The notes under the pieces: generated by a model
What the model was told of the DNA's origin: nothing
Databases searched by the model: none
The model's input: the letters and a program-made list of their open reading frames with translations, nothing else
In this document: in pieces, positions 2,571-63,805 of the stretch
Layout: the number at the start of each line of letters is the position of its first letter
Numbering within the stretch: the first letter of the stretch is position 1
Program-made: the position numbers and the translations under genes
Source: Heterotrichella gracilis
Lineage: Eukaryota > Sar > Xanthophyceae > Tribonematales > Xanthonemataceae
NCBI GenBank assembly: GCA_032358255.1
Contig: JAULBX010011323.1
Coordinates: 41,774-105,773 of the forward strand
Length of the DNA: 64,000 nucleotides
Direction: 5' to 3'

Positions 2571-2655
2571 CTCACCTGATCCAGCATCCTTATCTGGAAC
2601 ACCACCTCATCGTTGAGCGTGATGTAGGTCAGGCCCCTCTCACCCACATAAGCCA
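2571..2655 (-). pseudogene. Decayed copy of GH2 exon 3 with donor
   Basis: Near-copy of the third GH2 exon (2786-2872) lying just downstream of it in gene orientation. It keeps the CTGGATCAG|GTGAGG donor but has substitutions and lacks a clean acceptor. It is one case of the exon-edge duplication seen throughout the window. Confidence 0.75.
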
Positions 2656-2785
2656 GCCCTTCAAACCCTACCCTAGGGTTCCTACCATTCTTCAAACCCT
2701 ACCCTTTGGTTCCTGACCGCGCCCAGTCATGACGGCAATCCCGCCACTTGAATGTTAAACCCTACCCTAGGGTTCCTGGCCTCAC

Positions 2786-4709: not shown

Positions 4710-6047
4710 AGTTGGGGACCTGAAGTGGGGGAGTGGTTGGTTTTGGTCGGTCCAGAAGGAGGTTGATAGGTGAATAGCCGTTGGTTAAGGATATGGCAGT
4801 TTCCAACTGCCAACTGGTTGAAGTGATGTGTTCAAAACCTTGGCAATGGGCACACCGGTCTTCCCGCCAATGGCACACATCAAGTTTACCGCTGTAGCTG
4901 GTTGTCATGCACAACAGCACCTGTGATGACAGGTTCTACACGTCATATGGTTTAATTACTGGTTAGTGGGCGCGATGCAAGCATCATCGTTGGGCCGTTT
5001 CCGACACGGCATGCAAGATGGGATGTTTCGTAGCTCCCCTTTCTTTAAACCCAAGTGGGAGAACAGGCAGTCATGTACCAGCTGACGGAGATGCACTAGT
5101 ATAAAAACTCGATCTTCGTTTGCTGCGTTGCATCGTGAAAATGGGTGTGTCGGAAAACAAGGTGAACAGATGACCCACCATGTGGACATGGCCCCAGCCT
5201 TCAATCTACACCAGATTTCTAAACTAGCTCACCCAGATACGCGTGCTGCAGCGCTCCTACCTTCACAGAGACGCCCAGAGCTTTGCCCTCACAAACTTCG
5301 TTCCGGCAGTTGAAGTCGTCTTATGCATGCATGTCCATCTCCGCCAGAAACACCCGAGGACAGTCAAATGCACGAAGGCAGTAATCCAGTAGTCTCTAGA
5401 CTGGTTTAAGACCCACTTTCAGGAGGTGGGTATGTTGCAGTGGGCGCATCGCGAGGACACATCACCCTGTCGAATTCGGAGCATTTTGCGTTGAAAAATA
5501 AAGGAGAAAACTCGGAAAATAAATCCTGGGTAGTTTTTCCTTGGCCCAATGATGGCAATATTCACCTTGTTGCTCTACAAAAGGCAGAAGCGTTCACCGG
5601 TCAGACAGCCCAACACGTATCTATCACCAACAGGGCCTTGTTTGAGAGTTCATTGTTCCTGGCCCGAGCATTGAGCCCTAATTCCCACGCACCACCCACC
5701 GCAGCCACACTCTTTAGTACTGGGGCCATTGCACTCCATTCCAAACCCCACTTGTCTTTTGTTCCCCTGAGGGCACAGCTCTCTTACGACTAACTGAAGC
5801 AACATCCCTTATTCCCTTTCCCACGAAGCTTTGGGCACACTCCATTTGTGTAGAGGGAGACCCCCCTTGCACACACAGCACCCACGCCTAGCTCCTCCTA
5901 CCCTTGAAGGGGTCTCCGAGTTAAAAACTGTGTCGTAACCCCATAAGAGGGAAGTATTTTTGGAGAAGCAGCTGCCTGTGTGCCGTACTTGGCCGTTGCT
6001 CGCGAGGCTGGTCCAGTTTCATCAGAGGGCCATCAGTCGGATACAGG
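4710..6047. other. Intergenic region between divergent GH2 (-) and TyrRS (+) genes
   Basis: Should contain both 5' regions. An open frame at 5440-5793 (+) runs 117 codons to a TAA but has no ATG, no recognisable domain and no clear splice partner. It could be an exon of an unmodelled gene or chance. No RNA gene or terminator recognised. Confidence 0.4.
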
Positions 6048-10141
<4,094 letters not shown>

Positions 10142-10254
10142 GGGGTGGTGTGTGGTGGTGGTGGCGGTGGTGCTATGGGGGCATGGCAGCCACCCTGTCG
10201 CAATTTTCCTGATGTCACAGTGTGGTGGTGGTGGCGTGGGGATTATGGTTGGAG

Positions 10255-10495
10255 GTGATCGCATTGGTGGGCGTCTGGGGCTGCTGGCCATTGGCAAAAA
10301 GAATAACCTGCTGCTGCGGGTGGAGTGAGGGGTGGTGTGTGGTGATGATGTGCGGAGACTGCGTTTTTACTTGTGCTGGTGGCACCTGGTGGGGTGGGGT
10401 GGGGTGTGGAGGGGGGGGAGGGAGGATTTTATCGATGGCCGCCTGGTGCTGTTGGCCACTGGCAAGAAGACTCTGCTGTAGGCCACTTGGCAAGC
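10255..10495 (+). pseudogene. Two downstream copies of the TyrRS terminal exon
   Basis: About 10261-10330 repeats the exon 8 end including its stop and 3' flank (LLAIGKKNNLLLRVE, then TGA and GGGGTGGTGTGTGG). About 10430-10495 repeats LIDGRLVLLATGKK and ends in an early TAG. With the true exon this makes three tandem ends to the gene. Confidence 0.85.
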
Positions 10496-11387: not shown

Positions 11388-12625
11388 ATGCAGTGCAGCG
11401 CAAGCTTGCGCCCTGGGCGCTGCATGGGCCCAAACCCCAACCCCAACCCAACAAACAGCCAGCGCAGAAAGGCAATACGCCGACAGCGCCCACGACCCCT
11501 AGCCGCAACGGTGGGTGGTTTCTCTTGCCTCCTTTGTTTCTGCTACGCTGACGAGGTTGTTGTTCTGCTGGTACTTAGTTTTCATATTGTGTGCAGGCTG
11601 TCCAGGGCAAACCTGACCCCTACGACACCCTTTCTGAGCTGACTGTCCCACGACACAACCAGGCACTGACGGTTTTTGCTGCCTTTCGGGCCCATCCCGT
11701 TCATGCTTGACTCGCCCCTCTTGGAAGCGGTACGCTCTACCCAGCCTCCTAGGGTTACCAAGTCACCATATGCATGCATGCATGCACAGTTACCAGGTTA
11801 CAAGTTACCACACTCAGTTACTTGGTGACCTTGTTGCCAGACCTTTTGGCAAGGTGGTGACTCGGTTGGGAGCCGGTGTTTTGATTACTGGTACCCAATT
11901 ACTGTCCGTTCATGGCTCTGCCCTGCCTCCAGCCTTGTCAGTCCACCATGCAACATAGTTTCCACTTCTTCTGGTAAACGCCTGTCTTTGCTTGCGCAGC
12001 TGGCAGTTTCTTTCGTAGGATCAGCTTCTTTGTCGCTCCTATCCCTCGTGCCAACCGTGATAAGCTGCAGGAGAGTGATGGATCAGCTATCCACTGCAGT
12101 GGCTGAAAGCAAGCAACGAAAGGTCATCGTGGTGAGTGGTGCACCCTTTATCTTGTGTTCTATGTATACAAGTGCCACGGCCTCCCACCACGCCTGGCTA
12201 ATACTCTTCGCAGGGCTTCCTGTTGGGCAATGCTGTTCAGTGTAGTTGGCACACTGAATGGTTGTCTGTCAACCTGGGTGCACAGTGCACATTGTTTGGG
12301 TTCTGATTGGTGGCAACATCGTAACTGTGAGACGTGCGGGTGCTAGCTGCAGATTCAATTCTGTGTGGAGGGGGTGGTGACCACCCGCACCGTCACAGGG
12401 TTTGCTGACCTGGCGGCTGCTGCTGCCGCCGGCGACAACCTGGCACTGGAGGAGCGCATCAGGGAGTGCGTGCCAGAGTCTCTCGAGGGCCTGCGGGTCA
12501 CTGGGGTTGACTTTGAGATCCCGGGTGACCGCCGCGTGAACGTGCAGGAGGTGCCGCAGCGGATCCTGAGGGGTGTCCTGGAGATGGCCGATGCGTTCTG
12601 TGTCAACCTCACATACTATAAATAA
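11388..12625 (+). CDS. Unrecognised protein, about 200 aa, transit-like N-terminus and one hydrophobic segment
   Basis: Model: 11388-11510, 11597-11671, 12000-12131, 12353-12625, all phase 0. Exon 1 encodes a Met-starting, Arg-rich, acid-free leader (MQCSASLRPGRCMGPN..., ending near RPRPLAAT) before GTGGGT. Exon 2 has a weak donor (ACG|GTTTTT), so its end is the least certain point. Exon 3 carries a hydrophobic stretch (LAVSFVGSASLSLLSLVPTVI) that may be a membrane helix, and ends at GTG|GTGAGT. The last exon is a clean 91-codon frame with the gene-like codon use of neighbours (FADLAAAAAAGDNLALEERI, VDFEIPGDRRVNVQEV) and stops at TAA. I do not recognise the family. An organellar protein is an inference from the leader only; an additional exon in the 11.7-12.0 kb intron is possible. 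Confidence 0.5.
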
Positions 12626-14102: not shown

Positions 14103-17100
14103 ATGGTCCTCCGCACCGTCCTCAGGAGCGTTACCCGCCACCACAATAAGTTGCAGCAGGGCTTCAGATGTGTGGATGGAGCGCCTGGGTGGGTTTTTCT
14201 CCGCCAGGTCTCTTCAACTCCAGGGTGCTTCCAACGAGTGGCCAAGGAGGAGGCAGCACTGCCCACGGCAACCCAGCCACCAGGTAAGGCCATGGCAGCG
14301 TATTTGCGGTTTAAATTGTATCTTTAAAGATTGCAGTAGCTTCCCACATAGCTGCTCGCTCAGCCAAGTGGTCAACAGCTGGCAAAAACCCCCATTCCTG
14401 ATTCAAGATGTGAAGAGTGCAAGCCACGGGAAAACCCAAGACGCTAGAAATCAGCAGCAAAGACTCGTGTATACACTTCCAGCAGACATTGTTGTCGTTG
14501 CAACTCAGCGAGAAGCAGCCACAAGCATTTCTGACCGTATCGGGTCAAAAGCTGCCCCCTGAACCCCCCATCCCCTCCCCCATCCACAGGCCAATTACTG
14601 CTGCGGTACCACGATCTAGTGGCGAGAGGCTTGTTGAAGCCTGATGAGCAGCAATTACATGTGGCAAGCCATCTAAGTGACCTGTGTGACACTTTGGTGG
14701 GGTACCAGGCGCAAGTGGACCTCTACTATGCGCAGCTGGACCGCTACAAAGTGAGTGCGGCCTAGACCCTGAAACATAAACCCTAGACCAAAGCCATAAA
14801 ACCTAATGCAGTGAACTATGTGACACCCTGGTGGAGTGCCAGGCGCAGTGGACCTTTACTATGCGCAGCTGGACCGCTACAAAGTGAGTCTTCCTTAGAT
14901 CCAAAACCCTATTACAAACCCTACACCCTAGGCCCTAGACTTTAAACCTGAGACCAGTACTATGCGCGGCTGGACCGCTACAAAGTGAGTCTTCCCTACA
15001 TCCAAAACCCTAACCCAAACCCTACACCCTACACCCTAGACTCTAAACCCTAAGTGGCGTGATCTGTGTGACACCCTGTTGGGGTACCAGGCGCAAGTGG
15101 ACCTGTACTATGCGCAAGTGGACCGCTACAAAGTGAGCGTGACTTGGACCCTAGACCCTAGACCCTAGACCTGTACCCTAACTTCAGTGCACTGAGTGAC
15201 ATTTCTGGTGGAGTAACAGGCGCAAGTGGACCTTTACTATGCGCAGCTCGACCGCTACATGTGAGTGTGGCCTGGACTGTAGACCCTAAAACCCCCAAAT
15301 GCAACAAACCCGCTGCAAATTCAAAAAACAGCCCCAATATGCACAGGCTGAGCGCCAGGTGCTTCGAGAGAACCTCGTCCAGCAAGCCGAGGCCCAAAAG
15401 CAAAACCAAAACAGCGTCTCCAACCAGTCCAAGGGCATCCTGTCCTGGGTGTCGGCCAAGCTGGGGACAGGATCCATCCCGGGGGCTCCCTCGCAGGAAT
15501 CCCGGGAGCATGGCATAGTGCTGACGGTGGCCAAGAGGGAGCAGAAATTGGATGAGGTGATGGGGCTCGGTCCCCAGCCGCCGCAGGCGCCCAAAGGTGG
15601 GGATTTTACGGGAATTGGTGGGGATTTGTGTGCAATGCATGCCAATGACAGCATGACTAAAGCACTGTTTGTATATTGGCTATTCCCATATCGCGTAAGG
15701 GTTTAGGGTTTTGGGCATGTAAGTGAGGGAATCCTGGGAGCATGGCATAGTGCTGACTGTGGCCAAGAGGGAGCAGAAATTGGATGAGGTGATGGGGCCC
15801 GGTCCCCAGCCGCCGCAGGCGCCCAAAGGTGGGGATTTTCGGAAAAGGGCAGGGATTTGCTCACTCCTCTTGCAGGGCATGCCATGATGGCAAGGGTTCC
15901 TCTATTTATAGCAGGCCTGTACCTCCAAAACTATGATGAACAATACCGAGTACTTAAAAAAAAAACAAAAAAACTGAGAACATTTAATAGTTTTTTGTTA
16001 ATAAAAGAGTATTTGAAGAAATAAAAGAGTATTTAAATAAAATCCTTGATTTTTGCCACATGCAGGCCTGTACCTCCATGGCAGCGTAGGCACAGGCAAG
16101 TCCTTGCTCATGGACCTGTTCTTCGGACTGGTGGATGAGCAGGGGCGCACTGCCAACAGGCGCAGGATGCACTTCAACGCAGCCATGCTCGAGGTGGGTG
16201 CGGGACTTAGGGTTTTCGGCTTAGGGTTTAGGGTTGCGATGCATTTGAGGAGGGTTTAGTGATGAGGGTGTCACCACACAGTGCAGGCACCAAGCACGTT
16301 TACAAGTAAAACGGTAAGAAAAGGGTAAACCCTAGGGCTCTCATACACACCTCGCTCCATGCCCCCTTTCCAGGTCAACAGCCGGCTTCACCACCTGGAG
16401 ATGAGTCGGCAGACCAGCCAGGCCAGACGCATGGACCTGCACCTGCACCAAATCAAGCAACAGATGGCAGGGGAGGAGGGGGTGCAATCAACAAAGACGG
16501 TGGGTGGTGGTGGTGCTGCTGCTGATGCTGGTGTGGCGGTGGTGTGAGGGGGGTATGCACCGCACCGATCAAGCTGCAACTTGTCGGAAGCATTGGAAAG
16601 GGTGCCTCACCATCTCCAAACCCTTGACCCTCGCCTATGCCTACAACACCCCTGCTGGCAATGGGCTAGCAAATCAATGTTGGAAGAGGCATAATATCAC
16701 CTTCAAACCCTCAGTGTTCCTCCCCTGAGTCAGATCTCGTAATACTCTACCCAACCCTTCATTCTGTGCAGGATCCAATGCAGAAAGGACAAAGGCAGAA
16801 GGAGGCCACCATCGCCCGCATCGCCATTCGGCGAACGATCAGGGACCGATTATCCCGATCGCCCTTCGAAAACTCCCTGGCCCTGGCCCGATCCAAACAC
16901 ATAAAACCTTGCCAACCATGGTCCAAACCCTGTTAAACCCTAATGCAAACCCTACATTTGCTGCAGGATCCAATGCGGCAAAGGCAGAAGGAGGCCACCA
17001 TCGCCCGCATCGCCATCCGACGAACGATCAGGGACCGATTATCCCGATCGCCCTCCGAAAACTCCCTGGCCCTGGCCCGATCCAATGCTATCATAGTGCA

Positions 17101-19661
17101 GCGGGCGGCCCAAAGCCTGATCAGGGGCAAGGAGGATGACATCGAATCTGGGTGGGAGGGGAGGGGACGGGTGGCAGCGCTGCTGTGCTTCGATGAGATG
17201 CAGGTCACTGACCCCTTCACTGCCGTGGCGCTCAAAGGTGGGTAGTTAGGGTTTTAGAGTTTTGGGGTTTAGGGTTTGGGTTCTAGGGTTTTGGGTTAGC
17301 TTATGGTTACGCATGGGTAGGTGGTGAGTCTCACGAGATTCAGTAGGTGTTGACACCCCTACATAACCCCCGTCCATAACCCCCTACAGGCATCTTCTGG
17401 TGGAGGGGTGCGGGGTGGTTGCCACCTCCAACCTAGCGCCCCAAGGCTTGAACAGCAATGGGGTCCACAGTATCCTGTTCACATTATATTGTGCAGCTGC
17501 CATACCTCCTTGCCCCACTCATTCCCCCCCCCCTCACCATCTCCACCCCCCCACAGGCATCTTTGAGGGTCTCATGGCGGATGGGTGCGTGGTGGTTGCC
17601 ACCTCCAACCGAGCGCCCCAGGACTTGAACAGTTTCGGGCTGCATGAAGACCTGTTCACACATTTTGTGGATCAGTTGACCACCCACTGTGAGGTGGTGG
17701 AGCTGGGGGGCGCCAGGGACTACCGCAGGAGCCAGGGCTGGGAGCCGGTGAGTGGTGGGGGTAGAGATGTGATTCTTACAAAGAAAAAAGGCTGTAATGA
17801 ATGGCTGAAAGTCATCACAAGCCTGCTGCACAACATGAGGCGTTTCAAGATGCTCCAATGGGCTACCTAATCATGAGCTGGGTGTTTGATCACTGCTTTT
17901 ACCAGCAGATGGTCCTCCCCTTTTTTTTGCACATTGGTTTTCGACCATGCAACTAATTTCACGTCTGCCACATTTGTTTTACATCTGCGATGCGATTTGC
18001 TGCAGGTCGCCACCACCAGCACCTCCCTCCCCTCAGCCTCCACCTACTTTTACCCCCTGGGCCCCCACTCCCAAGCAGCACTGGACGCCGCCTGGCGCAG
18101 CCTCACCACCCACCACCCACCCAGCCCCACCCCCCTCCAGCTGCCGGTCATGTTTGGGCGCACACTGGAGGTGGGGGTGCATGCAGAGGGTTGCAAAACA
18201 TGGATCAACAAGTCATTGAATAACAGAAAACGATGAAAAGTTGCCCCACCCCATTTGATGAGTGGCACGGTCTGTAAATTTTCCTGGCTTTTCCTGTCCC
18301 TTTCCTGTCTCTCCCCCCGGCCCCCTCCTCTATTCTGATGCGTAATTGTCAGTTTGTTCCATGCCTGATTGAGGCATCTTGCCTGTGTTCCTTCAGGTAC
18401 GACAGCATGCAGGGGGGTGCGCAAAATTCGAGTTCGATGAGCTGTGCGGCCTGCCCCTGGGATCCGCCGACTACATTGCTGTGGCGCAAGCTTTCCACAC
18501 GGTGGCCATCACCGACGTCCCCTCCTTTTCGATGAAGGTGCGGTAAATTTATTTCTAGTTTCCTGTAATTTATGGTGCCCAGTAATTCCACACTAACCCC
18601 AAACCCTTAAACCCTTCACATGAAACAGGATGTGGGTCTTGCCAACATGGCATCTTACCCCTCCTCAGCATGGTTAATTTACCCCTTCCATTTCACCCAT
18701 GCAATCAGAATCGGGGACGAGCCCGGTGATTCATCACTCTGATTGACGAGCTCTACAACATGCAAACCCTCCTGTTGTGCACCGCTGGAGTCTACTTCTG
18801 GCCCCACACTAATCAACTTTGCCACCCACTCCACCCGTCGACACCCCTGAAAATCGCCTGTGTTACCAGCCCCCATCCAATCTGACCCCTCGATTGCCCA
18901 TGTGACCAGAATCGGGATCGGGCCCGGCGCTTCATCACACTGGTTGATGAGCTGTACAACGCGCGCACCCGCTTGATGTGCACCGCTGCCTGGGCCCCCG
19001 ATCAGCTGTTTGCGGGGATGGAGGGCGGGGAGCCCATTTTGGACTGGGAGGGGCTGCAGTTTGAGACGGCTGTGGAAGGTGGGTTTAGGGTTTAGGGCTT
19101 AAAACTTAGGGCGGGGAACCCATTATGGTTTAAGAGGGGCTGCAGTCTGAGGTGCCGGTGGGATGTCACCTGTTGGAAGGGTGTATGTGTGTGTTGGGGG
19201 CAGGGATTGCCCTTGGTTTGGTGGTGTGTGTATGTGTGTGTGGAGGGGGTGAGCAACCGTCTGACCCTGGTGAATGCAGCCCCTACAGATGGAGGATTGA
19301 GAAATTTAATCGATTTATGATCATGTGCGCTCTGTCCATGCTGTGGTGCAAGGAGATATCGCCACCTGGCGTTGCCCTCACACTCAAACCCTAGTCCCCC
19401 TACCTCTTGAACTCCACGAGCATACTATGTAACCTAAACAAATGAGAACCAACCCCCCTCCCGCGGAGTCCAGGTGGCATGCTGCGGCGCGAGGTGATGT
19501 CGCCAGGTGGCGTGGCCCCAGTGGCCGCAAGCCCGCAGGCGCGGCTGGCGGCGGCGGCTGCACTGGGGGGTATGGAGGAGCAGTTTGCGTTCAAGCGGGC
19601 GGTGTCGCGGCTGCATGAGATGCAGTCCGAGCTGTATGCGCGGTCACGAGCCAGGGGGTGA
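14103..19661 (+). CDS. AFG1L: AFG1-like AAA-type ATPase (plant/algal subfamily), 11 exons
   Basis: Probable mitochondrial (possibly plastid) inner-membrane ATPase; yeast Afg1 and human LACE1/AFG1L act in turnover of organelle-encoded subunits. Exons: 14103-14283, 14590-14750, 15347-15596, 16066-16193, 16374-16499, 16967-17237, 17557-17747, 18006-18170, 18397-18537, 18910-19078, 19474-19661. All are GT-AG and in frame, giving 656 aa. N-terminus [16 protein letters not shown] is a typical presequence. Walker A GSVGTGKS about 203-210; Walker B LLCFDE about 354-359, followed by MQVTD; sensor-1 region [10 protein letters not shown]; the plant-subfamily C-terminal block is clear ([41 protein letters not shown]). 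Between the Walker motifs sits a basic, Ser-rich insert (exons 5-6) longer than in bacterial AFG1. Introns contain copies of the edges of exons 2, 3, 4, 6, 7 and 10. Confidence 0.93.
14820..15266 (+). pseudogene. Four-copy array of AFG1-like exon 2 3' edge with donors
   Basis: After true exon 2 (ends 14750) the exon end plus donor recurs at about 14820-14888, 14957-14990, 15059-15136 and 15195-15266. Each has the Y-A-(Q/R)-L/V-D-R-Y-K coding and a GTGAG donor, and each is followed by CCCTA-type words. Spacing between ends is about 133, 102, 147 and 127 bp. The last copy has ACATGTGAGT in place of ACAAAGTGAGT. Confidence 0.92.
15722..15935 (+). pseudogene. Copies of AFG1-like exon 3 end and exon 4 start
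   Basis: About 15724-15841 repeats the last about 115 bp of exon 3 with its GGTGGGGAT donor side almost unchanged. About 15911-15930 repeats the first bases of exon 4 (AGCAGGCCTGTACCTCC) 150 bp upstream of the true acceptor. The two edge types lie on the expected sides of the intron. Confidence 0.85.
16774..16893 (+). pseudogene. 5'-edge copy of AFG1-like exon 6, acceptor intact
   Basis: Repeats about 120 bp of the exon 6 start after a CTGTGCAG acceptor, in the correct reading phase, with a few codon differences ([10 protein letters not shown]). No donor follows, so inclusion would need read-through or a cryptic site. Confidence 0.88.
17391..17495 (+). pseudogene. 5'-edge copy of AFG1-like exon 7
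   Basis: After CTACAG, the sequence repeats exon 7 (GGTTGCCACCTCCAAC, GCGCCCCAAG, TTGAACAG) with a small deletion near the start, 165 bp upstream of the true acceptor. Confidence 0.85.
18709..18805 (+). pseudogene. 5'-edge copy of AFG1-like exon 10
   Basis: Repeats AATCGGG.ACG.GCCCGG...TTCATCAC and the GACGAGCTCTACAAC segment about 200 bp upstream of the true exon, with frame-breaking changes. Confidence 0.8.
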
Positions 19662-20948: not shown

Positions 20949-21313
20949 CTAGAACCCACCTCCCCCATACCCACCCCTGTTGTAGCCGCCGCCGCCCCCA
21001 TACTTGTTGCCACCCCCACCCCCATAACCCCCTCCACCACCACCGCCGCCGCCATACCCGCCACCCCCATTGTAGCCGCCACCACCGCCACCACCTGCAT
21101 TGTAGCCACCACCGCCGCCACCAGCATTGTACCCGCCGCCACCACCCCCTGCGTTGTAACCGCCGCCGCCACCTGCATTGTAGCCCCCGCCAGCATTGTA
21201 CCCACCGCCGCCCCCTCCACCAGCGTAGCCCCCAGCTGGCGCCCCATTGTAGCCTCCAGTACTGCTTGGCGCGCCCCCGCCCCCGCCACCATACTTGTTG
21301 TAGCCCCCACCTC
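20949..21313 (-). repeat. Coding GGGYNAGG minisatellite: RPA1 tail
   Basis: Last RPA1 exon. Glycine runs are broken regularly by YN, YNAG, YNKY and single Tyr/Arg residues; it ends GGYGGGGF and a TAG. Low-complexity, no fold expected; resembles Gly/Tyr/Asn condensate-prone regions of RNA-binding proteins. Spliced in frame (GCA G|GA) to the DBD-C exon, which argues that it is translated. Confidence 0.8.
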
Positions 21314-34232: not shown

Positions 34233-34382
34233 GCTCACGGTAACCGCACAGCTTGAGAGGTACCTACACGTTGCAGCCAAACGCCCAACAAGCTACACCT
34301 TGCCTCACTTTGCCCAACAAAGAACGGGCACCCGCACCTGCAATGGCCCCTTGGGGCAGGCGAAGCCCTACCATGGTAACAG
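34233..34382 (+). CDS. Possible 5' exon of the Cys-rich gene
   Basis: Bounded by TGTTGCAG and AG|GTGAGA, open in a frame (LTVTAQLERYLHVAAKR, THEN CNGPLGQAKPYHGN) that leaves phase 2. This matches the incoming phase of the exon at 35530. Length 150 nt. No homology to support it; unmodelled exons may lie between. Confidence 0.35.
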
Positions 34383-49200: not shown

Positions 49201-52200
49201 TGATAGCTCCAGCGCGCGCGTCCCCCCACCGGCTTCCAAAAGAGCCACCAGGCGCTGCACCGCGCCGGCCTGTGATGGGAGGATGTGTGAGTGGCCTTGC
49301 ATATGTAAACCTGCATAGGTTTATTAATCAGCCAGGGGGATTAAGAAGAAAAACACATCAGCCTGAAAAGAATTGAGTGGGGGATTGAAAAAGTAAAACA
49401 GGCTGATGTGTTTTTCTTTTTCATCCCCCACCGCTACTGTGCTACTGGCTTGGCCTGGCATCGGTAACAGTGATGTTGTCAGAGTACTACGCTTCCGGGA
49501 ATTCCCTGGTGCATTGTTTCGGGAAGTCAAACCGAGGAGATTTACTGTACCTCTCTGAGCGCGTGCCAGTACTGTGCCAGTGACGAGATGTTGCGCAGCA
49601 CACCAGCGCCTGCAGGGATTAATCATTGTTAAGGGTTTAGGTTTTGATGCGTTACCTCTCTGAGCGCATGCCAGTACTGCGCCAGTGACGAGATGTTGAG
49701 CAGCACAGCAGCCGCTCGCTCCACTATGCTCTTGGCAGGGGAGGCCAGCAGGCGAACTAGGGAGGGGATGGTGGAGGGGATGGCTGCGGGAAGGGTGGGG
49801 AAGGGTGTCATGTGGGTCCGGATGGGTGGGTGGGGGGTGGTGGGGGGTTGGGGTGGGGATGAAGGGGAGTGTGTCCACATGTTGACAGAGATCCTGGCCA
49901 CCAAGTGGTGGCACCGATACCAAGGAAGCACAGCGCCTGCAGCGCTAGAAAGTAGAGCTGCCAATTGCACTGCCCTGCCCTGTATGCACCCTATTCTTGG
50001 ACTTCCACATGAGGATGCAGTGCAAGCGATTCACGAATGCAACCCCACCCCACCCCAGCCCACCCCCTCACCTGCCACCGCGTCCCTGTTCTTGGGGTTG
50101 CCGCTGGTGAGTATGCGGATGGAGTCCACCACCCGCTCAGTCACCTCCTCCTCCTCCACCTCCCCCCCCAGCAGCCCCACCAGCACGGGGATGCCCCACG
50201 CCTCCCGCACAGCCTCCTTGTTGGCGTCGTTGTTGATGCACACAGCCTGGGGGGGTTGGGTGCGGACTTGGGTGGGGGTGGGTGTGGCCAAGAGGGTTGA
50301 AGGGGTCCACCCAGTGTGGGGTGTGGGTTGGTAGAAGGGGGGTGAGAATGAATTGAGCCAAGGTGGGTTGGGTGTGGGTTGGTGGGGGTTCCACAGAGGG
50401 AGGGGTGGGGGTGGAGCACATGGCTTGGGGTTGTGGGTTGCAATCAAGGTGGATGGGAAGAAACGGGAATGAGGTCAAAATGAAGTGAGACACGCAGCAT
50501 GGCATGGGCGGCAAAGTGCTGTGCAGATCCCAACGTGCCGGAGTCAACACGCAAGCGACACCATCAGCACAACCCCAGGGGGACTATAATTACGAATACT
50601 ATACTTGCATCATGATCCCCTGACAAATCCACACCCCGCCCACCTTGATGGCATTTGCTGCTGCCGCCGTGGTTGCGTCGTATGGCTTGGCCCCCAGCAG
50701 CTTCACCAGCACGGGGATGCCAAGGTACTCCCTGGGGATTGGGAAAAAGCAGCGGGGATTGAGTGCACATACGAATGGGGATGTGTGGGAGTGTGTGGGG
50801 ATGCGCACGCTCCCACATGGAAATTAAATATAAGAATGGTGATGAGCAATTTCCGCAGCTGTTACGTACCATAGGCAACACATGCGGATGGGGATGGGGA
50901 TAGGGATGCGCCATACCCAGGTTTGCATGGACGCGTCCTGGTCAGCCACGCGTTTGGGCACTGCAACCCTCCCACCACCCACCACCACCACACCCACACA
51001 CCACACCTGAACGCGTCCTGGTTGACCTCGTGGTTGAGCGTCAACACCGTGATCACCTGAGCTGCTAGCACCAGGATGTCGCGCTCCTGCTGGGATACCT
51101 GCAACAGGTGGGCGGGTGGTGTTCGGCATTGTAGTGGGCATATAAGGGGGGACATGCATCAACACATGGATCAGCACATGCATCACTGCGTAGATGCGGT
51201 GCTCCTGCTGAGGGATGTGGGTCATGTGGAGGTGGGAAATATTTCGCATAACGGAATGGAACATAAGCATGTAGAGAATTTTGATGGGAACCAGGTCTGG
51301 TGCAAGCCGTCGAAGCGCACCAAACGGGGTGAAACGAGTGCGCGTGTAACCCCCTTGCTTGCTTGACCGCCAATTTGACCACTTACCAGTCCCCAATCGG
51401 CAACCCCAGCTATACCCCACCCCCCCACTCACAAGGCACCACTGTCCTTGCAGCCTTCCATTCACCTTCAAACCCCACACCCTTATGACCCAGACCCACC
51501 CACCTGTAACATCTTGACTAGCCGCTCCATGCCCCCTGTTTCCCTCAGCGGGTCCTTCATGAACTCCATTTGGGCCACGTTGGCAACAACCTCCAGGGCC
51601 TCTCGCGCTATGGACTGTGCAAGAGAGGGGAACGAGGTCAAAAGAAAGGGACAGTGGTTGATCATCCTTGTTTAAATGAGCAAATTGGCCGAGGTGCCTC
51701 ACATGGACAGCTAAACAACACTAATATGTACAACGTGGACGCATAAACCCTACATAAACCCTACAGAAGCTGAAACCCACCTGGTCTCCATCCTCCAGCA
51801 GCTTGACCAAGGGAGGCAGGCCTTGTACGTTGAAAATGGCCAGGCGGTTGTTGTCGTTAGACGCCAGGTACAGCAGCGCAGCTAGAATGGCATGCACCAG
51901 GCGCGGGTTGTGGCGCGCACCCCCCACCAGCAGGCCCACCATGTTGGTGATGCCACCCGCCTCGCTGCGGAGGTGTGAATGTGAATAAGAATAAGAAAAT
52001 CAGCGAATTCTCTTTGCCATGGGTTGTGGCGAGTGCAGTACTGTGCAGCCAATTCCCATACGGGCATCGCCATGCAGTGGCAGATTAATTACATGCGGTT
52101 GCATATGCACAAGACCCATCAGCGCCTGTGCAGTACTGGCGGCCCTCCCACCCAGTCATGGCATCACCGGTGGGTTACTCGTATGACAAAAGCCATTGCA

Positions 52201-55183: not shown

Positions 55184-56413
55184 GGTGTGACTGCCTGGCC
55201 TGCGAAACGGGGACACACGAGACCTATTCACTCCACGGCATCTTCGCGTGTGGACAACCCTCGAATCCTCCCAAACAGCGTGTGGATGCAGCCGAGACCG
55301 TTGCCCTACCCCCTAGGAGCCCTACCTGTCGCGTGGGGTTGTGGTGGACGCGGGTAAAAGCACCTGGGTACTGGGGCGCCACTCCGCCTTGCTGTGTGCA
55401 AGTCACTCACTGCGCGCTACTGAAGCCTTTCTCCCACTCTGCAGAGCTTTTCAGTGCAGGCAACTGCCAACGCACCCTTTTTCAGTGGGCACACAAAACG
55501 CCTGCGCCCCAACTGCCGAGGACGACCTCCCCGCAGCACCACACGGGGACCCAGCTGCTCCCCCTGATCAAATCACGTGCTGCAAAAGCGTCCCATGTGA
55601 CCTTTGAAAGGGCGCCAAACTGGGTTCCACGGCCAAAATACTTTTCGTTCTTGACGGTTGCTGCTAAAATGGACGGATGCAACGTTGCACAAAACACGTA
55701 GGTAGGCACCAGCGCGTGTCTGCAGGGCGCAGCAGAGTGGGGTTGTCCAGACCCTGCATGCATGCATATGCGGACTTCCTCGGTGGTTGAACGACATGAT
55801 CTGCGACTCGACACAAGGTTGGCACCAGTAGACCAACTAAAGGCAGTGAAGCTTCAAAGATCATTATTTTGATCACGCTTTTAAGTTACAAGCCTTGCAA
55901 TTTACCCCTCCACTGCTTGCGTGCATGGAGAGGCCCACTTCGAAGTTTAGCTTCAGTGCTAGTTGTTGATATATAGGCGAGATGCGATTCACCATCTAAA
56001 CGCCAACACCAACATTGCAATCTCCCCAACATTCACAACCATACTGCCCAAACACCCCTGCTAATGATCTACCCAAGCCCACGAGCTAACCCACTAACAG
56101 TCTCTGTCTACACAGGATCATATGCAAACGGAAAGCAAAGCGCTTGCTATCAAATAACAAACTATGAAACCCCATCTTTACCCCCCCACCCCACCCCTGT
56201 CATTCTCCCCCTTGCTGAGGCGCCTCCGCCAGGCTGTACATCGAGCGGAAGATGCGCGCCAGGTCAGGCACAGGCACAGGCTGCGGGGGGTCAAGGCGGC
56301 CGCAGGCATTGCATCATGACTCTCACCCTTACACCGCCTGCGCCACGCCTGCGCGAATCCACGGCCACACACCCGTGATTGGCTCTTCTGCCCCTCCGCC
56401 CGCCTCCCACCCC
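55184..56413. other. Intergenic; holds a copy of the ASCH-gene terminal exon
   Basis: About 56205-56312 (minus sense) repeats the last ASCH-gene exon, including the in-frame TGA, with a two-codon insertion (PVPVPDLARIFRSMYSLAEAP). The upstream part (55184-56200) shows no exon, RNA gene or repeat apart from a short CATGCATGCATATG run near 55757. Confidence 0.6.
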
Positions 56414-58320
56414 TCATTCTCCCCCTTGCCCAGGCGCCTCCGCCAGGCTGTACACCGACCGGAAGATGCGCGCCAGGTCAGGCACAGGCTGTGGGGGGTC
56501 AAGGCGGCAGCAGGCGCCCACCTGCCACCCATACACCCCCCGCGTCACGCCTGCAAGGACCAAGGCCACACCAGGGTGTCAGGGTTTTGGGTTTAGGGTA
56601 ACTAGGGGGAAAGGCCACACACCCAGATAGCGATGGGTCACAGGCCAGTGGTGGCCTTCCCAACAAGCGCTTGTCGCAGCTGCGTTAAGACTACATGGCA
56701 AAACCAATCCCCTCTAGTCACACAAGGCGCGCATCTGGTGCACACCCCACACACCAGCCCAGGTGCGCACCCACATCGGCACACAGCAGGTGCACACATT
56801 CCCCAAGCACTACCCACCTGGTTCCCACGCATACGTTGCCACACCATCAGACCCACATATCCCCTGATCTGTATCCCATACTCACTTTGTTGCCATGCGT
56901 AGGGTGAGTCGGGAGGCACCTGGTGCGCATGTGTGTCAGCCAGGAATGCTTCTTGGGTGGTGTAGTGGCGCACGCCTGAGAATTCAGCCCACCCCACCTG
57001 CACAGGGCAAGCAGCGTCACCTCCTGCACCCTAAACCCTATCAACACTGTCAACCAGGAACTTGCAACCTGGACAGGGCAAGCACCGCTATGACCCAATG
57101 GCACGAGTGCATCGCCAGGGGCTGCTTTGTTATCCCATCGTCCCTACACCCTACACCCTTGGTCCTAAACCCTAAACCCTGCATATGGCAAGCAGTTCCC
57201 TGGTGATGCAACCCCGAAGGTGGTGGCTGGTGCTCAAGATGCGCCATCCGAGGCAGTGGAGAATGTGGATGATATTGCACAGGTGAGGCTGCTGAGAGGT
57301 AGCAAATGCATGAACCCGACAGTGTCCCGAGGCAGCCTATGCCCGGCAAAGCAGGCCACGCCATGCCATGTGACTGGTTGGTGGCTGTTGAGCAGTAGCA
57401 GCATGGGGCTGGCACCTGGAAGCAACTTGTCAAGCACAGGAGTGCATTGTGCCTGCCCAATTTGCTGGTGCATCTCCACACATAGCTTAACAAGCAAGCA
57501 TCATCACACCAGCAACATGCAGGGATGGACTCACGATCTGTGCCAGGGGAGACCCTGCCGGCGCCACATCCCCCAGGCTCGCCACCCCCTCGGCGCCGGT
57601 GGTGGCCAGCAGCCACACGCGCCTCCCTGCACAGTGGCCACGTCATTAGTACATCAGCATGCCCAATGCCCATCTCGTTGCCATGCAACAGTGATATATT
57701 CCCATGCTATGCAACTCGCCAACATGCAACATGGCAGTGGCTATGCGTTTCATTATTTGATTAAACAACCCCCCCCCCCCCCCCCCCCCCTTCCGCACGC
57801 TGGCAGTAAAGAGCACCATATATGACAAGGTTAAAGTGCAGTTGTAAGACTTGCCTTGCAGTGCGGCTGGCAGTGGGTAGGTCCTGAGCTCGATCGTCTT
57901 TGCGCCTGACAGTATCTTCTCACACCACGGAGCCTGCAGCACGGTGGTGTTTAGGGTCTGGGTTAGGGTACCTTTGCTGATAATTTTACACCAACGGCGC
58001 CTGCGTATCTCACCCAACTGCGCCGCTAGGTTGAGCTAGGGACGACAAGTTTAAACTCCAGTGTGGGTAGTGTGTGGGTTAGACATCTACTTAGGGTCAC
58101 CGCATGGTTGCCGGGGTCGTTTTTTGGGTTTGGCTAGCATACCCTCCGTCCTGGGATTCCAAATTCTGATACAGATATAGCCTTGTGACACTACCCCGGC
58201 TGTAACATAGATGAACCACATACTTCAGTGTGATATATGCATGCGTATGCCTACCTTGCACTCCAGACCCACGTGGGCAGCTCGTTGGGTCGCTCCCTCC
58301 ACCTCTGGCGTTATTGCCAT
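56414..58320 (-). CDS. ASCH-domain protein with a GC-AG intron
   Basis: Exons: 58320-58255, 57933-57855, 57626-57535, 56997-56886, at least one unplaced exon, and 56521-56414. ASCH is a small PUA-like fold that binds RNA or acts in nucleotide or transcription-coactivator contexts. It reads HVGLECK|APWCEKILSGAKTIELRTYPLP, then GRRVWLLATTGAEGV, then VGWAEFSGVRHYTT...HQVPPDSPYAWQQ, the classic ASCH order. Exon 2 ends CAAG|GCAAGT: only the GC donor keeps phase 1 and the continuous ALQGRRVWLL. Exon 4 leaves phase 1 while the last exon enters at phase 0, so one exon between 56522 and 56885 is missing from my model. The final exon (DPPQPVPDLARIFRSVYSLA) ends in TGA and has a second copy downstream. 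Start ATG at 58320 precedes MAITPEVEG. Cellular site not evident. Confidence 0.8.
57769..57790 (+). repeat. Poly-C run of 22
   Basis: Homopolymer in an intron of the ASCH gene (poly-G on its sense strand). The exact length is unreliable. Confidence 0.9.
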
Positions 58321-59066: not shown

Positions 59067-62000
59067 ATGGAGCGCTGCATGCAGCAAAGCTTGTCCAGGC
59101 AGCTACATACAGCACCGAGCCAGGCGTTTAGGCTAAAGCGAACAGCTCTTCACGGTATGTGTTATCCACCGCATACCAGTCGAAAAAGGATAGGCGTCGC
59201 CTCCTAGATGGGTCCTGACCCAGCCTATATGCATGCATATCATGCAAGTGATAAAACACTTCCGATAACCACAAGACACCTTTGGTTTTTCAACCACTGT
59301 ATGCAGCTTGGGATACACAATGGTACCAGTTCTGGGTGTTTTGTGCTTGTCTTATTCTACGAATACTGTTTGGAGTGTGTAACTAGGCACCCCATGTTGC
59401 AACCGGCGCTGCAAAGCAGTGCAGTAGCCGTTCCTGTGGCATTTGCATTGTATTGAAGCCGCCATCAATGTCATAAAAAGCACTCTAACACCCACCACTG
59501 CCTCACAGCTGTCGTTGTCTTACCCTGGACTGCTCCCCACACCCTAAGCCCTTGAACACTCAATCCCAAAGGGCCCGCCGCTGCATTTCTCACTTAACTT
59601 GTTCGCATGCAGCTTCACGCAGAGTAGCAGGCAGCCGAGTCGTCACAGTGCGGGCGGAAGGCAGCGACAACGGTAAGGGCAAACCCTAAACCCAAACCCT
59701 AAACCCAAACCCTGAGGCCTAAAGCAGTTGACAACGGTGTGACCACACCCTTTAATAAACGCCTGCATCCATACACACAACGCCCCACATGATTGTTTGT
59801 ATCCCCACCCACAACAACTTGTACAGTTATTAACCACCCTGATAGTACATACATTGTATGCGCTTTCCAACTGGCATGATTAAACACGGTGCTTTGGCAA
59901 GCAGGCGAGGAGCGCGGTTCTTGGAATGTCAGTCTATTATAACCACCCTGTCAGTACATACCCTGATGAGACATGCATTGTAACTTGCACGCAGGTGGGG
60001 AGCGCGGATCCTGGGATTTCAGCCGTTTCTTGAAGACCGTGCTGTTTTTCAACCGGCCCCCCACCCCTGGCAAGGTCATCAGCACCATTATGGCGCAGCC
60101 CATGAAGGTCCTGGGCTCGATTACCGGTCAAGGGGCAAAGGTGGGTGGAGCGGGGGTTCTACCCCTTAGACCTATAACCCTAAACGCTGCACAGCGTAAG
60201 GTCAAACAGCGCATGCAAGCGGGCCCATATGGGTGCATGAACATCTTGAGGCCGATCGGTCAAGGGGCAAAGGTGCGTTTGGGGTCTCACTTTTTGAATC
60301 CTTTTGTCCAAACCCTACATATCACCATTATGGCACAGCCCATGAAGGTCCTGGGGTCGATGACTGGTCAAGGGGCAAAGGTGGGGCTGTGGTGGAGGGG
60401 GGTTCTCTCACATGGTTCACATGGATCACTCACATGGGCACACACCACGCATGTGCATGGAATCAGGGGTATAGTAAATATACTAACAGTATCGCATAAT
60501 TAGTATACCCCTGATGGAATGCAAACATGGGAAGGGGAGTCACATGTACCGTTGTAGTTGTAGGGTTGCATGCACTGTGTGCGCTTGGACGCATACATGC
60601 AAACTGGCACGGGCAGGGCCACATGACAAGCACATGCCCAGGAAAATGGCACCCAGGATGGACATGGATTGCTAGAATGTGCTGGCAGGCGCAGTGGCAC
60701 AAGGGGTGCACATGCACTTGGCCTTCCCATACTTGCGCATGCACATGGGGAGCTCGCAAAACCCTTATCACCGCCACTGTAGGACCCGTAACCCCGGCAA
60801 GATCCGTAACACAACTCTTCCACCCATCCCTCACCCTCCAAAATCCCCCACCGCAGGACCCCACCGCCGCAATAGTGACCATACTCCCCGCCTCCGGCGC
60901 CCCCGCCACCCCTGATGGGGACATTGTGATGGTGGCGGGTGCCAGTGGGGGGGTGGGGAAGAGGGTGGTAGAGCAGCTGCTGGGGAGGGGGAGGGTGGTG
61001 CGCGCGCTGGTCAGGGATGTGGGCAAGGCCAAGGAGCTGCTGGTAAGGGTTTGGGGAGGGTTTGATTAGGTTTTTCAATACGGTTTTCTGCTTGGTTTTA
61101 TTAGGGTGCTGCGCGCGCTGGTCAGGGATGTGGCCAAGGCCAAGGAATCTGCTGGTAAGGGTTTAGGGTACGGTTGCTTACAGGGTGTTATAAAAGTTGT
61201 GTGCACACTGATCAGGGATGTGGCCGATGCAAAAGAGCTGCTGGTAAGGGCGCGGGGTAGGATTTTGGGTAGGGTTCGGCAAGGGTTGTACCATTGCCTG
61301 GGTGTGGGATGTGGCCAAGGAGCTGCTGGTAAGAATACGATAGGGTTATGGGCAGGTGCAGTGTGGACAATGTACCGCAGGGTTTAAATAGGTCATCTAC
61401 TTTCCTATTGCAGGGTTCCGCCCCCCGGGGCAGGCTGGAGCTTTGCACCGCTGACATCACCCGGCCTCAAAGCTGTACCCTAAAAGGGTGTTCCACTGCC
61501 ACACATTGTTTACCCTCCCGCCATGCAGGGTATATCTCAGCCAATCGTCCCCTCTGGTCAGCCCGTTGCAGGGTTCTACACTAACAACAGACGGAGTTAG
61601 TAATATGTAATTTCCTTTTTATGAGCAGGGTTCCGCCGCCATTGCTCCAGGGGGCCGATTGGAGCTTTGCCCCGCTGACATCACCCAACCCCAGACACTC
61701 CTCCCCGAGTACTTTGAGGGGGTAAGGGCGCTGGTCAACTGCACAGCGGTCAAGGTGGCACCCAAGGAGGGGGACACTGTGGACCGGGAGAAGTACTATC
61801 AGGTAGGATCGGTGTATTCTGTGGGGGGGAATGGTGTAGAGTTTGTCGTGGTTTCTCAAGTTTAGTGGGAAAGATCAAGGCTTGGTGTACGACACTTTGA
61901 GGGGAGTTGGCCAACCCCCCTCGTGAGTACAATCCACGATATTGGCCCATAAAATGCCCTGTACCAGGGGTGTTATTACTATTATCCAGGACATTCTTTT

Positions 62001-63805
62001 CCTGCCTGTATGCACCACTTACGGAATCTGCAATTTTGTGTGCAGGGCATAAAGTTCTACGACCCTGAAATCGTGGGCGACACCCCTGAAACCGTGGAAT
62101 TCCTTGGGGTGCGCAACCTGGTGAATGCAGTGAAGGAGCAGCTGGGGTTTGAGAATGGGAAGACGATATTCGACCCAACAAACAAGGTAGGGTTTAGGGT
62201 TTAGGGCTTCGGTTTGAGAAGGGGAAGACAATATTGGACCCAACAAACAAGGTAGGAGTAGGGCTTTGTAAGCAATGTCTTCCGTTGCTCTGCACGCCTC
62301 CGCTGCTGGGATGCTGCCCTGTCTCAGCGTGCACTCAATGTCCCACTGGGGCGCGACGGGTACATCATTATTCTTATATTATCTTTATTGTCTTCCATAA
62401 GGGGCCTCTTGGTTGGGCAAGGGTGTACGTTTGCCATGGACAGTGCTGGGCTCACTGGCTGTACTGCCGGCATGCATGCGACTGGCAAAGTAGCGATTGA
62501 GTTCGGTGGTTTGGGGCGCTGTGTATCCATTTGCCAGGGGATCTGTGCACGTGATACAGGGGTATCCTGAGGATGCTCATGTTTTGCTTGTTCAGGAAGC
62601 GGCAACTTCCTGGGGATCCCTGGATGACGTGGTGATGGGCGGGATCAGCGAGAGCGGGTTCAAGGTCAGAACTCATGTGCACCTCCAATCCGCTATAGCC
62701 TAGTTCTGAACCCTACAATGCAAGCCCCTGTGCATTGGTACCATAAGCAAAGGCGTGGGCAGGTAAGAACAAAGGTTTGGCATGCATCTTCTGCCTCGGC
62801 TTAATTTCATTGCCCTCAGATTTTCACTTGTACCTTGAGGCCTTCGTTTTAGGGTTTCCCTAAATGCGCTCGTTTGTTCCATTTGCTGCCGCATCTTAAA
62901 CCCTTACCAACTGATATAGCATTTTCAAGTTTACCTTGGACACCTTGGAAACGGGGTTACATGTACACGCTTGACCCCTTCAACCCCTTGCAGGTTGTGC
63001 CCCGAGGGGGCGAAAACGGCGGCCCGGCCGGCGTGTTTTTTGGAAACGTCACCACCGCCAACAACGGGGGCTTTGCGTCCATCCGCTGCCGCAACTTTGA
63101 GCCCGCGCTCGACCTGAGACCCTACGAGGGTCTGGAGCTGCGCGTGAAGGGCAACGGGCTGCGCTTCAAGTGCATCTTGCGCACAGACACAAACTGGGAT
63201 GGCATAGGGTTTTGCAGGTGCGGGGGAAAGCCCTAGGTGGGGTTATTGTCGTGGGTGGAGATCAGCGAGAGGTTCTTGGGTGCGAGGGAAGACCCTTGGT
63301 AGGGTAAAGGGGGTTAGCTGCATGTTAGGTGTAAGGGCTGTGCTTCAAGTGCATCGTGCGCACCGTCACCACCTGGGGTGGGATAGGGTTTTGCAGTTGC
63401 GGGGCGAAACCCTTGGGTAGGGTACGTTGGGGCAGGTTGGGGGGGGACAGAATTGTGGGGTTCTGCAGTGTAGGATCATGTGGAAACCCTTAGTAGGTGG
63501 TGAGACTTGGACTTTTGCAGAGGATATTCACCACACCCCGTCTCTGTTCCACAGGAGCTTTGACACTGTGGATGGCGAGTGGCAGACCCTGCGCCTGCCC
63601 TTCAAGGATTTCATCCCCGTGTTCCGAGCACGCACCCTGAAGGACGGGACCCAGCTGACTGCTTCCAGCATCATCAGCATCCAACTCATGATCTCAAAGT
63701 TTGAGTATGATGGGCAGCTGAACCCCCATTTCCGGGCGGGCAAGTTTGAGCTACCCATGGGCGGGATCAAGGCCTACATGGCGGAGCCGCTGGTGGGGGT
63801 GGATG
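59067..63805 (+). CDS. HCF173: HCF173-like plastid protein: atypical SDR plus CIA30 domain (3' end cut by assembly junction)
   Basis: In Arabidopsis HCF173 promotes psbA translation and so photosystem II repair. Exons: 59067-59154, 59613-59672, 59995-60140, 60857-61042, 61629-61802, 62046-62186, 62596-62664, 62994-63217, 63555 to about 63805. All GT-AG and in phase. Leader MERCMQQSLSRQLHTAPSQA...TVRAEGSDN is a good chloroplast transit peptide. Rossmann motif VMVAGASGGVGKRVVEQLL about 122-140, split so that a CIA30 piece (WDFSRFLKTVLFFNR) precedes it, as in HCF173. The main CIA30 part follows: WGSLDDVVMGGISES, GFASIRCRNFEPALDL, LRFKCILRTDTNWDG, WQTLRLPFKDFIPVFRAR. The last exon runs into a G-tract at about 63806 with no stop; beyond it the sequence is bacterial-looking, so the natural C-terminus is missing. 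Confidence 0.9.
59905..60380 (+). pseudogene. Edge copies around HCF173-like exon 3
   Basis: True exon 59995-60140. About 59903-59935 repeats its 5' edge (GCAGGCGAGGAGCGCGG) upstream. About 60235-60272 and 60327-60380 repeat its 3' edge with donors downstream (GGTCAAGGGGCAAAG followed by GTGCGT and GTGGGG). Confidence 0.88.
61106..61330 (+). pseudogene. Three-copy shortening array of HCF173-like exon 4 3' edge
   Basis: The exon end (GCGCGCGCTGGTCAGGGATG...AAGGAGCTGCTG plus GTAAG) recurs at about 61106-61154, 61200-61243 and 61307-61328. All three keep a GTAAG donor; lengths fall with distance. Confidence 0.92.
61413..61582 (+). pseudogene. 5'-edge copies of HCF173-like exon 5
   Basis: About 61410-61470 (TTGCAGGGTTCCGCC..., coding GRLELCTADITRPQ) and a short fragment at about 61566-61577 (TTGCAGGGTTC) lie upstream of the true acceptor at 61628. 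Confidence 0.88.
62200..62254 (+). pseudogene. 3'-edge copy of HCF173-like exon 6
   Basis: GGTTTGAGAAGGGGAAGACA...CCAACAAACAAG plus GTAGGA, directly after TTTAGGGTTTAGGG, 15 bp past the true donor region. Confidence 0.9.
63328..63420 (+). pseudogene. 3'-edge copy of HCF173-like exon 8
   Basis: CTTCAAGTGCATCGTGCGCAC...GGGATAGGGTTTTGCAG repeats the exon 8 end. The donor is altered to CAGTTGCGG, so it is probably inactive. A weaker trace (GTGCGAGGGAAGACCC) lies near 63280. Confidence 0.85.

Follow-up and report, generated by a model that had tools for sequence, protein, structure and literature searches.

Direct local copies of exon edges in the introns of a 64-kb genomic window from Heterotrichella gracilis

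How introns lengthen is a poorly known process. Patch-mediated duplications in plants were reportedly described by Vaughn and Bennetzen in 2014, and nickase duplications, also in plants, are said to have been described by Schiml in 2016. In the potato RdRp gene, a tandem duplication across an intron-exon edge has been described; the copies differ at ten sites and are supported by whole-genome sequencing and RNA-seq reads (PMC4974935). In mouse cells, small tandem duplications arise when CST/Pol-alpha fills in 3' overhangs prior to end joining (PMC8355091). Telomeric repeats enter mammalian breaks, sometimes duplicating the site (6 of 130 rodent and 4 of 25 primate loci; PMC2246262), and 824 human repair-mediated proximal duplications within 5 kb have been listed (PMC2671141). 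The core-Reinhardtinia algae have conspicuously long introns; in the available part of the source, what is gained by keeping them long is described as unknown, and no driving mechanism is settled on (PMC8226300). Here, we describe a 64,000-base stretch of Heterotrichella gracilis DNA (contig JAULBX010011323.1, positions 41,774 to 105,773, forward strand; hereafter the window), in which introns carry copies of the edges of their neighboring exons. Copying of exon boundaries within the window was confirmed to be real, dense, and orderly.

The window contains no N and has a G+C content of 54% by base counts. Gene models were obtained by our own codon-score and splice search, and the edges were corrected by eye. 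Nine multi-exon genes were predicted from the sequence, comprising 66 exons and 57 introns, many of the latter GT-AG; some outer exons and a micro-exon of the Cys-rich gene are uncertain predictions. The TyrRS and RPA1 models matched PDB chains at E 8e-93 and 3e-72, respectively, and Pfam matches were obtained for eight of ten first-pass proteins. By Pfam search, the gene content includes RPA1, NOG1, an HMG-box gene, and an NAD-binding/CIA30 gene. The last of these we take to be HCF173-like, a label that follows the initial annotation of this DNA. Together with the many GT-AG introns, this gene content points to a photosynthetic eukaryote. Repeats were detected by comparing the window with itself in BLASTN (dust filtering, E ≤ 0.01), and a high-scoring segment pair (HSP) was called local when its copies lay less than 1.5 kb apart. 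For merging into independent events, pairs were dropped when the aligned length was below 38 bp, the spacer below 15 bp, the distance above 420 bp, or the overlap with a better pair above 30%. Pairs with at least 86% identity are referred to as young.

The initial annotation had claimed that nearly every multi-exon gene holds copies of its own exon boundaries in its introns. It had further claimed a side rule, on both strands and in at least seven genes: copies of the 3' part of an exon lie downstream of it, and copies of the 5' part lie upstream. Self-comparison was the check that it proposed. Carried out on the window, this comparison returned 87 HSPs, seven of them inverted, and the local ones were overwhelmingly in direct orientation (76 direct vs. 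3 inverted). Five dinucleotide shuffles of the window each gave no local direct HSP. A stricter count, limited to modelled genes, copies at most 450 bp apart, and scores of at least 28, with simple and telomere-rich matches removed, gave 53 direct HSPs (38 exon-edge and 15 intron-only) vs. 1 inverted, with two exon-exon matches set aside. When the 76 HSPs were sorted, 28 crossed an exon 3' end with the copy downstream (two of these belong to the last TyrRS exon and cross a stop codon, not a donor), and 11 crossed an exon 5' end with the copy upstream. Five lay within a 3' half with the copy downstream and five within a 5' half with the copy upstream. The remainder comprised three whole micro-exon copies, one exon-exon match between related ARM repeats, and 23 matches of intron or intergenic DNA only. 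No HSP broke the rule.

The HSPs were merged into 45 independent events with copy identities from 72 to 95%. Exon DNA was copied into an intron or a flank in 36 events; five events were intron-only in or near modelled genes, and four lay outside modelled genes. Exon events were found in eight of the nine modelled genes, three of the eight being on the minus strand (GUS-like 1, TyrRS 4, AFG1 7, RPA1 4, NOG1 5, Cys-rich 3, ARM/SAM 8, HCF173-like 4, and HMG 0), and the claim of pervasive copying therefore holds for the window. So does the side rule, on both strands and in eight genes: all 35 classifiable events, i.e., the exon events minus the micro-exon, obeyed it. The copy lay downstream in 21 events (17 past the 3' end and four within the 3' half) and upstream in 14 (10 past the 5' end and four within the 5' half). 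In the first exons of NOG1 and HCF173-like, exon and copy cannot be told apart with certainty; excluding these two events, 33 of 33 obeyed. The further statement that copies include the donor or acceptor applies commonly but not universally, since in 8 of the 35 events the alignment stays inside the exon and stops short of its edge. In addition, last exons account for 3 of the 21 downstream events (TyrRS 10063, NOG1 32952, and ARM 46030).

The side rule follows from simple geometry. When a segment A across an exon edge is duplicated locally and directly, the exon body remains attached to the first copy at a 3' edge and to the second copy at a 5' edge; hence, the spare copy lies downstream in the former case and upstream in the latter. 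The rule is a sign of local direct duplication without transport, and no extra cause is needed. If exon pieces were pasted freely into introns close by, no particular side would be imposed; the 35 of 35 events on the predicted side thus support local duplication.

The two copies are usually not adjacent. Segment A has a median of 73 bp and is mostly exon with a little intron, and the spacer between the copies, f, has a median of 99 bp. Homology breaks off abruptly beyond the copied edge. When it was extended into the spacer from an anchor at that edge, the score exceeded chance (p < 0.05) in 1 of 26 young pairs on the right and 3 of 26 on the left, the pairs not all being independent. None of the 26 reached half the score expected of a decayed tandem copy, for which decay at about twice the observed rate was taken. 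An unanchored local search found residual homology of the spacer to a flank in 10 of 25 young pairs, three of the 10 being secondary pairs of arrays. The other 15 had none and consist of an unrelated insert between two copies of one segment. Homology over the whole period was thus absent from most pairs and present in a few arrays; Tandem Repeats Finder (TRF) arrays lie at 14857-15288, 28876-29164, 35609-35895, and 38457-38620. Because the spacer is mostly unrelated to the flanks in young pairs, plain tandem duplication is only part of the picture. The usual form has an unrelated spacer between two copies, and genuine tandem units occur alongside it. The proposal of repeated tandem duplication of boundary segments in the initial annotation is therefore retained as recurrent local direct duplication, but not as simple tandem duplication.

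The copy-to-copy distance peaks near 195 bp, with 22 of 45 events in 171-210 bp. With a 40-bp window, the peak had p = 0.00025 against permuted spacers and p = 0.011 against a lognormal null; with windows of 30-60 bp, p ranged over 0.00025-0.0065 and 0.010-0.045, respectively. The fairly uniform inserted length near 195 bp would be expected if a family of introner-like mobile elements had inserted and generated long target duplications. In an all-against-all comparison of the 45 spacers (E ≤ 0.05), however, the matches listed were telomere-like, CCA-rich, or short (12-17 bp), and the longest other match listed was 29 bp at 83%, itself 31% telomere-like. Sequence related across many introns, as expected of introners, was not seen among these listed matches, in which only simple and telomere-like repeats were common. 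Moreover, at 40-140 bp the duplications greatly exceed the length typical of transposon target duplications. On the matches listed, a transposon or introner origin was rejected, and we give it next to no credence.

Exon edges are overrepresented among the events. Among 40 events (35 exon-edge and five intron-only, one of which, at 35609, may be an unmodelled exon), random placement along the genes predicts an exon-edge share of 35%, and heavy decay lifts it to at most 0.68; this predicted range of 0.35-0.68 depends on the uniform placement and the chosen indel rates assumed in the simulations. Exon DNA or exon edges thus seem to be favored by the events. The exon share of the aligned piece (0.80) was also considered as a sign of exon targeting and was dropped, since the decay model alone yields 0.64-0.87.

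These data bear on the model of the initial annotation, in which units of ~195 bp that span exon edges are duplicated in plain tandem and fast intron indel decay follows, with selection keeping the exon copy recognizable. It accounts for the side rule and the preferred copy-plus-spacer length, spacer homology survives in 10 of 25 young pairs, and four stretches are TRF tandem arrays. A simulation with heavy large-indel decay (rate 0.4) gave an aligned median of 84, an exon share of 0.76, and a median intron part of 6 bp, near the observed 73, 0.80, and 13. On the other hand, when tandem units of 195 bp were simulated with indels both small and large, residual flank homology persisted in 71-87% of young pairs, far above the observed fraction, the two measures being similar but not identical. 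The simulated exon-edge share was 0.48-0.68 vs. the observed 35 of 40 (P 1.8e-7 to 2e-4). Both predictions depend on the chosen indel rates. We consider plain tandem duplication a tentative possibility, on the improbable side.

The spacers are rich in telomere-type repeats. The window holds 588 matches of the TTTAGGG class vs. 48 expected from 40 shuffles; as a two-unit word, TTTAGGG occurs 64 times and TTTTAGGG once. In green algae, the ancestral form of the telomere repeat is TTTAGGG (PMC8226300); judged from this repeat and the gene content alone, a green-alga nuclear genome would be the likely source. The rotation class of TTTAGGG is the commonest 7-mer class of the window and is dispersed over introns and intergenic DNA, not just beside copies. 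Telomere-type 7-mers cover 10.5% of intronic spacer bases vs. 2.6% of intron outside spacers and copies and 0.8% of exon. The 45 spacers contain 452 bp of them, vs. 176 ± 50 in same-length random pieces of modelled introns, and none of 1,000 random intron placements came up to 452 bp. At least one such 7-mer was present in 24 of 45 spacers vs. 12.7 expected, without the strand polarity of telomerase addition. The clearest case is at 62146-62256 in the HCF173-like gene (plus strand): two 46-bp copies, 93% identical, are separated by a 19-bp spacer that is mostly TTTAGGG repeat (62192-62210), and the second copy (62211-62256, source 62146-62191, downstream) carries the 3' part and donor of exon 62046-62186. 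Unequal exchange between telomere tracts was rejected as the source of the primary 3' events, since the left flank is exon and exons contain only 0.8% telomere 7-mers. Such exchange may enlarge arrays.

Introns with copies are longer than those without (median 480 vs. 289 bp, n = 26 and 31, p = 5.6e-5). Medians rise from 294 to 460 and 582 bp with zero, one, and at least two copies (n = 30, 18, and 9), in agreement with the initial suggestion that copies contribute to intron growth. After subtraction of the copy period, the median was 250 bp vs. 294 bp in copy-free introns (p = 0.09). The linear slope of intron length on copies was 0.49 (95% confidence interval [CI] 0.09-0.85), whereas pure addition predicts 1; some of the added length is therefore lost again, or the base length varies. 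Part of the link may reflect the greater room in longer introns.

Once made, the copies fit nearly neutral decay. Differences between copy and exon amount to 8.8, 6.3, and 18.9% at codon positions 1, 2, and 3 and 16.5% in intron columns, close to d:d:2d:2d. A stop is present in 4 of 35 copies and a frameshift in 4 of 35, and codon changes comprise 106 synonymous and 103 non-synonymous ones. These features argue against an assembly artefact, i.e., alternative haplotypes or strains of one intron joined end to end. Such joining would suit third positions that differ somewhat more than a neutral copy predicts. It fits poorly with the absence of N despite 45 events, with the multi-copy arrays and telomere-like spacers, and with the wide spread of identities, and we judge it highly unlikely.

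The splice dinucleotide (GT/AG) is kept in 28 of the 32 copies that cover it. If copies were kept for function, e.g., as decoy or reserve splice sites or to supply alternative parts of exons, this retention would be expected, and constraint could also explain the excess of third-position differences. However, neutral decay near 7% per site, by our own estimate, predicts about the same retention, and stops, frameshifts, and the near-parity of synonymous and non-synonymous changes do not suit a kept function. Functional decoy splice sites were rejected on copy decay and splice-dinucleotide retention, and a functional role of any of these kinds appears very improbable. The statement of the initial annotation that splice sites are multiplied thus holds for their presence; there is no sign of use in these data.

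If synthesis-dependent repair captured DNA from close by, perhaps using as template a diverged homologue with unalignable introns, exon edges would be left as the recognizable remainder. Such capture would account for unrelated spacers, few intron-only events, and the third-position excess, and proximal repair-mediated duplications that include splice sites are known in human (PMC2671141). Free capture, however, forces neither the side (35 of 35 events as predicted) nor the direct orientation (76 vs. 3 local HSPs) observed here. Given the 16.5% difference in intron columns, the adjoining intron DNA of a homologue should presumably still align. Capture is therefore regarded as unlikely.

We find it about an even call that the copies reflect recurrent break-repair duplication at exon edges with filler, acting as a route of intron growth. 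With L and R as flanks, breaks or stalled synthesis at exon-intron edges would be repaired repeatedly, turning L-A-R into L-A-f-A-R. Segment A would be duplicated in direct orientation, and new DNA f, often telomere-repeat-like, would come to separate the copies. Function would stay with the copy still attached to the exon body, and the other would remain in the intron. The intron would gain A plus f, typically near 195 bp, and the spare copy would then decay nearly neutrally. Plausible chemistry would be staggered-break fill-in and filler insertion in end joining, some breaks also gaining telomere-type repeats. Staggered breaks, any role of telomerase or CST, and any link to nucleosomes are what we infer rather than observe.

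Several points weigh against break-repair duplication. The exon-edge excess (35 of 40 events vs. 0.35-0.68 simulated) has no account in it and is weaker when counted by HSP with secondary copies included (38 edge vs. 15 intron-only). The ~195-bp step also has no account in the mechanism, and the spread of copy plus spacer is not significantly tighter than permuted (standard deviation 65 vs. 70, p = 0.13). The CST/Pol-alpha duplications are small in the available part of their source (<100 bp; PMC8355091), vs. the ~195-bp step here. Spacers without telomere repeat number 21 of 45. The polarity expected of telomerase at both ends (G-rich left, C-rich right) is absent; on the plus strand, telomere 7-mers are 30 G-rich and 43 C-rich in left halves and 55 and 38 in right halves, if anything reversed. 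The spacer-flank homology kept in 10 of 25 young pairs means that part of the events represent plain tandem units or subsequent expansion of arrays. Finally, the ratio of third-position differences to x was 2.51 (95% CI 1.94-3.36) vs. an assumed neutral ceiling of 1.72; this excess could come from a diverged template or allele or from a period of constraint on the copies.

A stronger form of the idea would hold that introns in this lineage grow mainly by exon-edge repair events, each of ~195 bp (about one nucleosome repeat), with a filler that is often telomere repeat, via telomere-linked fill-in or end-protection proteins at breaks. We regard this form as doubtful. If it were true, the growth of introns would be recorded in exon edges as in fossils, and many green algae would owe their long introns to this process. 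Were telomere-repeat filler linked to local duplication, intron growth would be connected with break repair. Since each pair includes a frozen exon, the copies give individual growth events a date and an orientation, which makes the question countable in any genome.

The copies are distributed over the genes as follows. In the GUS-like gene (minus strand), 2550-2659 is an intronic copy of the 3' part and donor of exon 2786-2872 (source 2760-2869, downstream, 90%). In TyrRS (plus strand), 7375-7447 copies the 5' part of exon 7598-7926 (source 7597-7669, upstream, 89%), with the acceptor outside the alignment. The copy at 8456-8554, of the 3' part and donor of exon 8247-8447 (source 8355-8451, downstream, 84%), has a spacer of 4 bp and is not in the 45 merged events. 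The 3' part of exon 8936-9148 is found with a decayed donor at 9289-9365 (source 9083-9159, downstream) and as a truncated further copy at 9201-9240, and the 3' part of the last exon, with stop and 3' flank, at 10251-10355 (source 10063-10167, downstream). AFG1 (plus strand) contains at 14810-15288 a copy array of the 3' part and donor of exon 14590-14750 (source 14676-14767), with CCCTAAA-like DNA between, and at 15728-15859 the 3' part and donor of exon 15310-15596 (source 15496-15628, downstream, 93%). Its upstream copies, each of the 5' part and acceptor, are 16753-16896 from exon 16967-17237 (source 16948-17085, 90%), 17380-17455 from exon 17557-17747 (80%), and 18696-18787 from exon 18910-19078 (79%).

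In RPA1 (minus strand), both edges of exon 22615-22733 are copied, the 3' part and donor at 22493-22548 (source 22602-22657, downstream, 95%) and the 5' part with a decayed acceptor at 22825-22865 (source 22705-22745, upstream, 90%). Downstream of the RPA1 C-terminal exon, 20957-21325 holds low-complexity repeats with many CCGCCACCA units. In NOG1 (plus strand), the first-exon 3' part and donor recur about 4-5 times in an array at 28781-29164 (source 28590-28703), with TAGGGTTTTGC repeats. This gene also has the 5' part and acceptor of exon 30676-30909 at 30471-30571 (source 30656-30753, upstream, 79%) and the 3' part and donor of exon 31779-31939 at 32055-32120 (source 31880-31945, downstream, 89%). 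In the Cys-rich gene (plus strand), 38537-38749 holds tandem copies, with an 80-bp period, of the predicted, uncertain 21-bp micro-exon and both its edges (38457-38504), and 41281-41340 copies the 5' part and acceptor of exon 41401-41481 (source 41376-41435, upstream, 82%). At 35609-35895, about three tandem 104-bp units are Cys-rich and coding-like, with CCCTAAA-like DNA between; this is perhaps an unmodelled exon of the Cys-rich gene.

ARM/SAM (minus strand) carries copies of a 3' part and donor, all downstream, at 47483-47559 (exon 47657-47804, source 47640-47719, 89%), 48669-48769 (exon 48876-49073, source 48844-48945, 86%), and 49548-49607 (exon 49656-49783, source 49653-49712, 93%), the spacer of the last being unrelated to the flanks. 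Upstream copies of a 5' part and acceptor are at 48421-48487 (exon 48107-48285, source 48224-48290, 94%), accompanied by an older copy at 48601-48650, and at 49161-49282 (exon 48876-49073, source 48965-49087, 92%). Between two ARM exon-edge copies, the AT-rich spacer 48291-48420 shows, by eye, an inverted repeat TGTCCTCTCTT / AAGAGAGGACA. Besides the case described above, the HCF173-like gene contains copies of the first-exon 3' part and donor at 60323-60406 (source 60083-60160, downstream, 86%) and of the 3' part of exon 62994-63217 with a decayed donor at 63316-63423 (source 63136-63243, downstream, 81%).

Outside the modelled genes, direct repeats occur at 501-662 and 1252-2519, including a 380-bp pair at 74%. 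In the 501/613 pair (94%), three TTTAGGG units precede the second copy, and the left flank is duplicated too. A segment encoding DLARIFRS(V/M)YSLAEA is present twice at 56190-56571, and its gene was not identified. A coding-like two-exon model at 12078-12625 had no Pfam match. Scans of the window for Rfam families at gathering scores and for tRNA genes gave no matches. Searches with RPA1 and with NOG1 of the genome-contig and viral-contig collections found no relatives, and a search of viral contigs with TyrRS found three loci at 36-43%.

The initial annotation knew of no standard name for the pattern, which is half right, since a single potato case of exon-edge tandem duplication is in print (PMC4974935). 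Among the titles and abstract openings listed from the open-licence literature searched, none described the pattern at this density, which is weak evidence of absence. The density, the telomere-rich filler, and the exon-edge excess look new, on the basis of one window and with single cases already in print. As in potato RdRp, the duplicated segment spans an exon edge, the acceptor in potato; in the available part of that report, one gene is concerned, and a new intron and an inserted exon piece were made, whereas here the copies lie within introns of eight of nine genes, with extra DNA between (PMC4974935). The AGGT tandem-duplication model of intron gain likewise invokes local direct duplication of exon DNA within genes, but it needs the AGGT of the copies as donor and acceptor of a new intron. 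Here, the distance from copy to the far-side modelled exon was measurable in 30 of 35 events (the other five being at terminal exons) and was 43 bp in the nearest and 130-646 bp in the others. No copy abuts the next exon, and these are therefore not introns newly made from AGGT duplications. The CST/Pol-alpha duplications are also direct, local, and tens of bp long; in the available part of the report, they are smaller, a tandem duplication was scored only if the copy was immediately adjacent, and no link to exon edges is reported (PMC8355091). Human proximal duplications differ in a mean spacing of 1.2 kb, in one exon copy of opposite orientation, and in the small number of exon edges, with four partial exon/intron donors in Table 2 of the source, as far as its available part goes; like the present copies, they are short and local and include splice sites (PMC2671141). 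Interstitial telomeric repeats belong to mammals, with duplication as a minority outcome and no exon-edge link in the available part of the source, and they share with this window telomere repeats at repair sites, putative ones here, sometimes with duplication of the site (PMC2246262).

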